Of a stretch of 37,253 nucleotides of DNA, positions 3,300-19,188 are shown piece by piece. The stretch is from a virus: the IMG/VR virus record IMGVR_UViG_3300021962_000279, positions 1 to 37,253 of that record; one strand, written 5' to 3'. Numbering within the stretch: position 1 is the stretch's first letter; each line of letters begins with the position of its first letter. Both the position numbers and the translations under genes were made by a program. Under the pieces are notes generated by a model, which was not told where the DNA came from, ran no database searches, and was given only the letters and a program-made list of their open reading frames with translations.

Positions 3300-3528
3300 A
3301 TCACTAGGTGAAAAAGCAAGTAAATGTGATAAAGAGGCGGATAAGGTAGCACTTATTCGCCTTATGATGTTTCTGTCTATTTTTATCACCAACTGTTTCA
3401 TTGTGGCAAATGCTGTAAGACATTGGAATGATAAAACAACTGTTGAGGTTGTAATTGATGGTTCTATGTTACCTGATTATCAAACACCACCACCAAGACA
3501 AACAAACAAACCATTTGAGTTTGAATAA
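3262..3528 (+). CDS. Single-pass membrane protein (88 aa)
   Basis: A basic N-terminus (MKKRKTFWRLLAKSLGEKAS) precedes one membrane helix at about residues 31-52 (LIRLMMFLSIFITNCFIVAN). After it comes a short RHWND segment and a Pro-rich tail (PPPRQTNKP). From memory it belongs to a conserved cyanophage family, function unknown. The stop codon TAA is embedded in the late promoter ATAAATA that serves the next gene. Confidence 0.78.
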   Translation: MKKRKTFWRLLAKSLGEKASKCDKEADKVALIRLMMFLSIFITNCFIVANAVRHWNDKTTVEVVIDGSMLPDYQTPPPRQTNKPFEFE

Positions 3529-3531
3529 ATA
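3525..3531 (+). promoter_or_regulatory. T4-type late promoter
   Basis: ATAAATA, 20 nt before ATG 3551. This is the -10 type read by gp55-like late sigma factors. It contains the TAA stop of the upstream gene. Confidence 0.65.
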
Positions 3532-3550: not shown

Positions 3551-3907
3551 ATGAAAACTTTCATTCAATTCTCTGAAGATCTCCAGCAACGAAGACAAGA
3601 ACTTCGCCAGAGACAATTGAAACAAATGGCAGCACATAAAGAGCGTGTTGCTTCACATCAAGCATCTCAAAGAGAGAGACAACAAGCATCAGCAGAAAGA
3701 GAGACATTAAAGAAAGAAATCAAGAGAGAGTTGCAGACAGAACAAACTCCGACAATGGAGCCCAATCTATACAACAAACTAATTGCCAGAAGTCAATTAT
3801 CAAGAAAAAGAGAAAGAGAAAGACATGCTCAGAGAGAAATGGAGCACGAAGCAAGTGCTCAGCAGGCACAAAAAAGGAGAGAGATGAGAGCAATTATGTC
3901 TCGCTAA
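3551..3907 (+). CDS. Gln/Arg/Glu-rich coiled-coil protein, candidate internal virion protein
   Basis: A 118-aa protein; I choose ATG 3551 because the late promoter lies 20 nt upstream and an upstream in-frame start would read through the previous gene. The N-terminus MKTFIQFSEDL resembles the T4 capsid-targeting sequence (IPIII: MKTYQEFIAE), but I see no clean (L/I)-x-E cleavage site of the T4 gp21 type. The rest is an extremely charged helix (QRRQELRQRQLKQ, RERERHAQRE). A late-expressed head or scaffold-associated protein is plausible. Some cyanophage virion proteins share this MKxFxxF start. Confidence 0.75.
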   Translation: MKTFIQFSEDLQQRRQELRQRQLKQMAAHKERVASHQASQRERQQASAERETLKKEIKRELQTEQTPTMEPNLYNKLIARSQLSRKRERERHAQREMEHEASAQQAQKRREMRAIMSR

Positions 3908-4157: not shown

Positions 4158-4358
4158 ATGACCGAACAAATCCCTAACGTGCTTCCTCACATTCGTGATC
4201 TTAAAGATGCTTGGCGGCGGCAGGATTTCACTTTTAGTAAGCAACAACAAGAAGAATACGATCTCTTGCTTGCTACTCGCCGTGAACGTGTGAAGCAATT
4301 CTATGCTGAAGGTCGCGTATTCAAAGGTTCATATAAAGCAAAGGAAGAGGACATCTAA
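4158..4358 (+). CDS. Conserved hypothetical cyanophage protein (66 aa)
   Basis: A helical, charged 66-aa protein. Residues 36-54 (LLLATRRERVKQFYAEGRV) form the recognisable core, which I recall from cyanomyoviruses. No domain of known function. Its TAA stop forms the core of the late promoter CTAAATA (4355-4361). It may be read from a weak promoter with TTGACA at 4094 or by read-through from copy 2. Confidence 0.75.
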   Translation: MTEQIPNVLPHIRDLKDAWRRQDFTFSKQQQEEYDLLLATRRERVKQFYAEGRVFKGSYKAKEEDI

Positions 4359-4361
4359 ATA
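4355..4361 (+). promoter_or_regulatory. T4-type late promoter
   Basis: CTAAATA, 26 nt before ATG 4388 and overlapping the upstream stop codon. CTAAATA is one of the two late core sequences reported for freshwater cyanophage S-CRM01. Confidence 0.65.
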
Positions 4362-4387
4362 CTAAAAAGTAGTGTTTAGATAGAACA

Positions 4388-5089
4388 ATGCGTAGATTTC
4401 AGGAGTTTATGTCTCTTTGTGAAAAAACGGGTATGTTTGGTCATCCCTCTGGTAAATCTGGAGATGCTGCTGGTAAACTAGGTTGGGGTGGTGGTGCAAC
4501 TATCAAAGCTGCACAAGCAGGTGGAAGGATTCGTCCTGAACGCAAAAAGACAGATCCTGAAAAACTTAGAGTAAAAGCAGTTGGTGGCGGCAAGACTGAA
4601 CCAGTTCAGTATAAACCACGCAAGGATATTGGAACTCAACGTCAAGCATCTACAAGAGTTCAACAACCAACACAAGAACGTGGATCTGCTGATGTAAAAG
4701 CAAGAGCAGCAGCAGCGGCAAAAGAAGAAAGAAAGAAAGCAGCACTTGCTAGAATTGCTGCAAAGAAAGCAGGTGCAAAACCTGAAGCAGCAAAACCAAA
4801 AGCAAAGGAAGTTGAGAAGCAAGCATCTAAACTTCTCTCCACAAAGAAACCTGAAGCAGCAAAACCTGCAGCAGCAAAACCACGCAGACAGTGGAAAACT
4901 GAAACTGGTGGTCCTATGACAAGGGCAGAAAGAGATAAAGCAAGAAACAAAGAAAGGGGTGAAGCACTCAAGAAGAGAAAGGCAGAATTGATTAAAGATT
5001 TCACTGAAAAGCATGGTAGAGCACCTAAAGGAACCGAAAGAACTAAACTGCTTGGATTAGCTCATAGCACTGTAAAAGCAGGCGTCTAA
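4388..5089 (+). CDS. Lys/Ala-rich histone-like protein with capsid-targeting-like N-terminus
   Basis: A 233-aa very basic protein. It starts MRRFQEFMSLCEKTG: the first eight residues resemble the T4 internal-protein targeting sequence (MKTYQEFI), and L10-C11-E12 fits the (L/I)-x-E cleavage motif of the gp21 prohead protease. Residues ~95-175 are low-complexity Lys/Ala/Pro (AAAAAKEERKKAALARIAAK, then PEAAKP repeats) like histone H1 tails. The C-terminus is a charged helix. A late promoter precedes it. I infer an internal head protein packaged with DNA; a non-specific DNA-binding late protein is the alternative. The stop codon merges into repeat copy 3. Confidence 0.8.
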   Translation: MRRFQEFMSLCEKTGMFGHPSGKSGDAAGKLGWGGGATIKAAQAGGRIRPERKKTDPEKLRVKAVGGGKTEPVQYKPRKDIGTQRQASTRVQQPTQERGSADVKARAAAAAKEERKKAALARIAAKKAGAKPEAAKPKAKEVEKQASKLLSTKKPEAAKPAAAKPRRQWKTETGGPMTRAERDKARNKERGEALKKRKAELIKDFTEKHGRAPKGTERTKLLGLAHSTVKAGV

Positions 5090-18894: not shown

Positions 18895-19055
18895 TGAGTA
18901 CACTTTACAATCTTTTATACAAAGGGCGTAAAATTTATACTAATCTCACTATGGAAGACTGTAGTGAGATTTTACAAGACTTCTCAGAGCGTTTTTACTC
19001 GGGAGAAGATATTGATCCTAATGAATTAGAAATGGAGGAAATTACAAATGGCTAA
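18894..19055 (+). CDS. Small hypothetical protein (53 aa)
   Basis: ATG begins on the last A of the glycosyltransferase stop. MSTLYNLLYKGRKIYTNLTM, then EDCSEILQDFSERFYSG and an acidic tail. The YKGRKIYTNLT-ED-xEILQDF pattern is a small cyanophage family from memory. Overlaps the next gene by 8 nt; a GGAGG at 19034-19038 serves that gene. Confidence 0.75.
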   Translation: MSTLYNLLYKGRKIYTNLTMEDCSEILQDFSERFYSGEDIDPNELEMEEITNG

Positions 19056-19188
19056 AGGTGGATCGAATAAGACTATTTTTGAACCAGGAGCACCAAAGAA
19101 GACACGTCAAGGACGTTCTGCTCGTACACTACTCAGTGCGACATCTCGTAATGGACGTAAAAAAAGATATCGCGGTCAAGGCAAATAA
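19048..19188 (+). CDS. Small basic conserved protein (46 aa)
   Basis: MAKGGSNKTIFEPGAPKKTR, then QGRSARTLLSATSRNGRKKR and YRGQGK. Highly basic, probably disordered or nucleic-acid binding. It closely resembles a tiny protein found beside the baseplate genes of most T4-like cyanophages. GGAGG 10 nt upstream. Followed by a terminator. Function unknown. Confidence 0.82.
   Translation: MAKGGSNKTIFEPGAPKKTRQGRSARTLLSATSRNGRKKRYRGQGK

Follow-up and report, generated by a model that had tools for sequence, protein, structure and literature searches.

The stretch of DNA analysed here (the window) is a virus record of 37,253 bases, which was assigned to a T4-like cyanophage because of its relatives and its baseplate-type genes; the likeness of its genes to those of phage S-SZBM1 was judged by eye. 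The original prediction had placed an internal head protein at 4388-5089, and its coordinates, reading frame and N-terminus all agree with the translation, which begins MRRFQEFMSLCEK. The features at the locus are listed below, a slash marking a predicted or equivalent cleavage site here and throughout.

4388..5089, plus strand: gene of a basic protein of 233 amino acids tagged with a capsid-targeting sequence (CTS), the predicted precursor of an internal head protein
4388..4423, plus strand: predicted capsid-targeting propeptide MRRFQEFMSLCE, followed by K, with F4 and F7 and a predicted cut after E12 (L-C-E/K13)
4424..5086, plus strand: predicted mature protein of 221 amino acids, pI 10.7, consisting in order of a variable spacer, a conserved basic core, a helical stretch and an exchangeable C-terminal module
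4355..4361, plus strand: late-promoter motif CTAAATA, ending 26 nt before the ATG of 4388-5089
4353..4381, plus strand: RNA hairpin of 12 pairs with a 5-nt loop, its 5' arm containing the late promoter
3551..3907, plus strand: second gene with a CTS-like start, 118 amino acids, MKTFIQFSEDLQQRR..., with an unrelated charged body
3525..3531, plus strand: late-promoter motif ATAAATA of the second gene, ending 19 nt before its ATG

The predicted mature protein contains 17% K, 17% A, 11% G, 9% R and 6% P, and is basic, as are the T4-type internal head proteins. It had been described as almost wholly Lys/Ala/Pro-rich, which is correct in that the protein is very basic and rich in Lys and Ala, and overstated in that K, A and P together account for 40% of it. 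Its likeness to histones holds for charge and composition and does not extend to family or fold. Pfam yielded no match to the window protein and, among 61 family members, four stray matches of one member each; the best match of the protein among PDB sequences had an E-value of 0.72, and a Foldseek search with its model gave no fold match at E 0.001. The AlphaFold model, built with 55 sequences, was poor overall (mean pLDDT 66.8, pTM 0.31), and fold matches are therefore uninformative. Helices were placed at residues 4-13 (low confidence), 100-127 (a long helix), 179-209 and 216-232, with residues 15-44 at low confidence; the C-terminal helical hairpin formed by the last two helices was the only part predicted confidently. 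A histone fold or family was rejected for want of a usable match in Pfam, PHROGs, PDB sequences or Foldseek.

Homologues of the window protein are present in 10 of 50,697 phage records (tblastn, E 1e-3) and 110 relatives were found in IMG/VR, the best 80 of which were used. The resulting 84 rows were reduced to 76 distinct proteins after exclusion of two rows open at the left; in 6 of the 84 a downstream ATG that fits the motif was taken as the start in place of the first one. One of the six search probes was the N-terminal octamer, which is common to few homologues. The family has a median pI of 10.6 (range 10.2-11.1, n=75) and shares a core at about residues 45-100, GGRIGAERKKTxPExRRMKAVGGGKxEPVxxYKPRKDIGTQRQASTR, on either side of which the spacer (about residues 13-40) and the C-terminal module swap freely among homologues.

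It had been proposed that cyanophage homologues with the same kind of N-terminus be sought, and the start M-x(1-3)-[FYL]-x-x-[FY] was found in all 76 distinct homologues, 66 of which have the strict form M[KR]x[FY]xxF. Substitution is free in the C-terminus and just behind the tag, but positions 4 and 7 are retained: in a 61-row alignment F7 is invariant and F4 is present in at least 90% of rows, the count of 76 also admitting Leu at position 4. The tag was retained in isolates whose tblastn match began only at residue 39-45, and the homologues of S-B05, S-SM2 and SynMITS9220M01 start MKTLRDFLSEA, MKTLGQFLAEA and MKTFAQFVNEV, respectively. P-TIM68 is a further isolate with a homologue. The spacing is specific. 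Of the 3559 ATG starts that open at least 60 amino acids, 85 fit M[KR]x[FY]xxF, compared with 0-8 for seven altered versions of the pattern, and a late promoter precedes 81 of the 85.

A hydrophobic-x-E triplet follows immediately after the motif in 76 of 76 homologues, with L or I at the hydrophobic position in 58; elsewhere in the same proteins such a triplet occurs in 180 of 14,157 eight-residue windows (1.3%). The closing glutamate is residue 12 in 38 homologues, 10 in 33, 9 in 4 and 13 in 1. The residue after the predicted cut is Ala in 43, Val in 16, Glu in 9, Ile in 3, Asp in 2, and Lys, Gly or Ser in 1 each. In the window protein the tag is closed by L-C-E at residues 10-12, a site of the gp21 type, and the Lys that follows is found in this protein alone (1/76), among the rarest choices.

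The N-terminus had been likened to the tag of T4 internal protein III. In the T4 record IPII and IPIII start MKTYQEFIAEA and IPI starts MKTFKEF, and the window protein shares their aromatic residues at positions 4 and 7, the critical positions, which are kept throughout its family; the comparison is therefore sound. As summarised in a review of Lindsay Black's work (PMC9026906), ten residues of the T4 CTS are enough for packaging, with residues 4 and 7 serving targeting and residues 8 and 10 processing, and cleavage by gp21 occurs after L/I-x-E. According to the same review, the T4 internal proteins are basic, present at about 300 copies each and injected, and other T-even phages have additional basic proteins with CTS-like starts. 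T4 gp61.1, a hypothetical protein of 54 residues (T4 18966-19130, minus strand; L114 1467-1631), also has a CTS-like start, MKTFKEFIKED.

The cleavage specificity to be expected in cyanophages can be judged from their major capsid proteins. The gp23 propeptide of T4, 65 residues long (PMC9026906), ends FLTE/A in the T4 record, and the equivalent sites are LLTE/A in S-CREM2, ILTE/A in S-SZBM1 and FLAE/A in S-SCSM1. Loci from eight further relatives were compared, one of them without a gp23 start; the other seven have FLTEA, MIAEQ, MLSEQ, MLSEQ, LMEA, LMES and LMES, all of the LxE or IxE type. Because of these sites it is plausible that cyanophage gp21 has a hydrophobic-x-E specificity with a loose requirement for the next residue.

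The late promoter that had been noted 26 nt upstream of the gene is indeed present as CTAAATA at 4355-4361, a near variant of the S-PM2 late motif given as NATAAATA in PMC2984593. The initial 13 kb of the window has just two [AC]TAAATA sites, at 3525 and 4355, each a short way before one of the two genes whose products have a CTS-like N-terminus. Either form of the motif is found upstream of nearly all homologues: 73 of the 75 whose upstream sequence is long enough have it at 15-32 nt, compared with 47 of 766 other ORFs of the same loci (Fisher p about 5e-70, for sequences that are related and hence not independent). The motif suggests that 4388-5089 would be expressed late, in time for head assembly. 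As the N-terminal motif and the hydrophobic-x-E triplet are each present in 76 of 76 homologues and the late promoter in 73 of 75, the resemblance of the tag to that of T4 is not due to chance.

The hairpin that includes the promoter has a predicted energy of -11.6 kcal/mol (z -4.33), which none of 200 shuffles equalled, and the energy drops to -1.6 when most of the 5' arm is removed (from 4364 on). Values of z below -2 were obtained for 30 of 69 distinct promoter-bearing leaders of the family, compared with 6 of 43 controls, which were non-tagged late-promoter leaders of S-CREM2 and S-SZBM1 (p 0.0008). The arm sequences vary from one subfamily to another, and some family members have only a weak hairpin. 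The late start at 4388-5089 presumably lies in or near the hairpin loop, where it was placed by T4 practice. A hairpin across the late promoter probably blocks early expression of the gene. A precedent is T4 gene e, whose long early transcripts are described as adopting an inhibitory structure, with late promoters in its 5'-strand region (PMC3014915). Sequestering of a Shine-Dalgarno sequence was considered as the means of the block and is unsupported: no clear Shine-Dalgarno was seen in the 3' arm, and some homologues have a weak hairpin. In four loci (L009, L027, L032 and L035) the late promoter lies within a near-perfect hairpin followed by a T-run, resembling an intrinsic terminator upstream of the family gene; early transcripts might stop there where late ones start.

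The second gene, 3551-3907 (MKTFIQFSEDLQQRRQEL...), has 13 IMG/VR relatives, several of them adjoining a homologue of 4388-5089, and its promoter motif at 3525-3531 also sits in a hairpin (z -2.16). Other tagged genes were seen among the relatives. One phage record (L215 1067-3156, minus strand) has a run of four CTS-like genes, and a tagged protein of L216, which begins MKTYQEFISEA, weakly matches phrog_2667, 'internal head protein', at its N-terminus (E 0.0085). GNAT acetyltransferase domains stand behind a CTS-like start at L204 4526-4915 (Pfam E 5.6e-9) and, with a weaker match, at L215 2779-3156 (minus strand); it is possible that these are injected acetyltransferases.

The relation between the tag and virion content was investigated in three phages with a readable proteome. 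None of the S-CREM2, S-SZBM1 and S-SCSM1 genomes encodes a homologue of the window protein (tblastn, E 1e-3); the comparison concerns other tagged proteins. The S-CREM2 virion contains 52 proteins according to a table in PMC10665884, whose authors allow for co-purification; a term search of that paper gave no mention of a capsid-targeting sequence. Five of its virion proteins, labelled by the authors as non-structural or unknown, have tagged N-termini: a SAM hydrolase (MKDFDSFLEE; Pfam S-AdoMet lyase), a kinase-like protein (MKRFDAFLTEE), a cytidylyltransferase (MKNFSSFLTEA), ORF13 (MKDLHSFLTE) and ORF136 (MQTFSMFFSE). The pattern M..[FYL]..F.{1,4}E matches 6 of the 219 CDS of S-CREM2 and 5 of the 6 are among the 52 detected (p 0.003), a test that is not blind because the pattern was set only after the detected N-termini had been viewed. 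The Cas9-like virion protein ORF12 (L089 7704-10313, minus strand) was not counted; its RFASFMAEA begins only at residue 18, and the tag may be internal or the annotated start may lie too early.

In S-SZBM1 (218 CDS, 30 virion proteins according to Table 1 of PMC9146016) the strict pattern gave 0 of 1 detected and the broad pattern 1 of 3, namely the cytidylyltransferase. In S-SCSM1, 48 of the 282 CDS are marked 'virion protein' in GenBank (the paper gives 45), and a test specified in advance gave 1 of 2 detected for the strict pattern (the NMNAT) and 3 of 5 for the broad one (p 0.036), the latter including the portal protein, which is surely a chance match. Pooling the three phages gave 4 of 6 (strict) and 10 of 19 (broad) detected, compared with 130 of 719 CDS, a result driven by S-CREM2; without that phage the figures are 1 of 3 and 4 of 8. 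The proteome tests are thus mixed, strong in S-CREM2 and weak or null in the other two, and the tag is a fair but imperfect predictor of virion detection.

The cleanest case of a tagged enzyme is the NMNAT-like cytidylyltransferase. All 81 rows, 80 of them obtained with six internal probes and one otherwise (no N-terminal probes were used), start MK[SNH][FL]xxF with glutamate at residue 10; of the 69 distinct proteins, 64 have the strict form and 65 a late promoter. The enzyme was detected in virions of all three phages and, as reported in PMC10665884, also in those of S-CBWM1. A less favourable case is a family like phrog_1742 (S-SZBM1 ORF191, S-SCSM1 ORF30 and members in L208, L213, L219 and L221), which starts MKSFKxFxSESVN, has the late promoter in none of 6 and was undetected in S-SZBM1 and S-SCSM1 virions. 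Tagged proteins across 221 cyanophage loci fall into 17 clusters, two of which look spurious (one on the minus strand of L004, and S-CREM2 ORF51); a shifted control in this survey gave 71 matches, mostly from the NMNAT family, in which residue 5 is often also F.

From these observations we hold it probable that the product of 4388-5089 is an internal head protein that would be targeted by a CTS, packaged and processed by gp21. The conservation of the T4-critical positions across the family, the late promoter and the LxE-type sites of the cyanophage major capsid proteins all favour the CTS reading of the N-terminus, as does the fact that cyanophage virions were found by others to contain enzymes with this tag. 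Weighing against it are the window's own site, with a Lys after the cut that is unique in the family and its glutamate at 12 rather than 10, the absence of a homologue from the three phages with a readable proteome, and the weakness of the tag as a predictor outside S-CREM2. The tag and its setting are established here, and we infer binding, cleavage, packaging and ejection from T4 and from the tagged enzymes in other cyanophage virions.

The pathway would run as follows. Late in infection the gene would be transcribed from its own gp55-type promoter; in read-through early transcripts the hairpin around the promoter would stop translation, as in T4 gene e, and late transcripts, beginning inside the hairpin, would thereby escape the block. 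The first ~12 residues would act as the CTS, F4 and F7 binding the prohead core, so that the protein would be enclosed during head assembly. The prohead protease gp21 would then cut after L-C-E12, and the freed, strongly basic protein of 221 residues would remain with the packaged DNA and exit with it into the next cell. Injection of the product is somewhat better than an even prospect. A role against variable host factors, like that of T4 IPI against a restriction enzyme, is the best fit because the ends swap fast, and is offered tentatively.

The same N-terminus could instead be a conserved amphipathic helix that binds another partner, in a late DNA-binding or condensing protein that never enters the virion. 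A pI of 10.7 and a long basic helix would suit such a protein, as would the absence of the family from the three phages with readable proteomes and the failure to detect some tagged proteins in virions. The occurrence of this N-terminus on unrelated enzymes that were detected in virions, together with the F4/F7 spacing and LxE site of the T4 internal protein type, makes this explanation unlikely. It is similarly improbable that the protein is mainly a core or scaffold helper that shapes the prohead and is dispensable after injection: a core-binding tag would suit this function equally, and T4 IPIII is credited with an unsolved role of that sort (PMC9026906), but cyanophages do not generally have the family (10 of 50,697 phage records, against 526 with the cytidylyltransferase), and its freely exchanged ends are unlike those of a structural part. 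Low-complexity flanks and module exchange are common in the family, and a frozen N-terminus spread among genes by recombination might resemble a CTS by chance or by functionless descent. That the tag is kept in 76 of 76 homologues while the residues right behind it are replaced, and that a tag of such specific spacing is found on about fifteen unrelated clusters, renders this origin very improbable indeed.

If the product of 4388-5089 is a CTS-targeted internal head protein, it may be one of many. On balance we favour the view that the T4-type CTS is a general, portable address label in T4-like cyanophages, by which a variable set of unrelated late proteins would be loaded, trimmed by gp21 and injected. 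Candidate cargo would include the basic family, its neighbour, the NMNAT, the SAM lyase, the kinase-like protein and the GNAT acetyltransferases, among others. A general label is more interesting than a single internal head protein. Enzymes have been found in cyanophage particles (NMNAT, SAM hydrolase, kinases, a Cas9-like protein) by several groups that were unable to tell cargo from contamination; a general label, if real, would account for these puzzling reports and make the injected proteome readable from sequence. With a tag that is legible in the sequence, cargo versus contamination becomes a testable question, and one can predict which proteins accompany the DNA into the cells infected by these abundant phages; cyanophage heads would also become accessible to the protein-loading methods established with T4. 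No description of the tag was found in the open-access literature on capsid targeting and internal head proteins in cyanophages; subscription papers lay outside this search and priority is unproven.

Several known systems offer a comparison. The window protein is Lys/Ala-rich and very basic like histone H1 and histone-like proteins, but has no family or fold match with them. Its leader resembles that of T4 gene e in having a late promoter in the 5' arm of a hairpin that a start within it eliminates; it differs in that the 3' arm has no clear Shine-Dalgarno, and in that the hairpin and T-run of some homologues resemble a terminator. The tagged virion enzymes of cyanophages (NMNAT, SAM lyase, kinase-like protein) would be the counterparts of Alt and the further enzymes that T4-like heads contain, whereas the window protein has no recognisable enzyme domain. 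The closest comparison is with T4 IPI, IPII and IPIII. The body of the window protein belongs to a different, modular family with no relation to them found beyond the tag (61 members had no PHROG match at 1e-3), and in about half of that family, known here from sequence, the glutamate is at 12. Like the T4 proteins, however, it is basic, is encoded away from the head genes and has an N-terminal tag of ~10-12 residues, with aromatics at 4 and 7 and a hydrophobic-x-E end.
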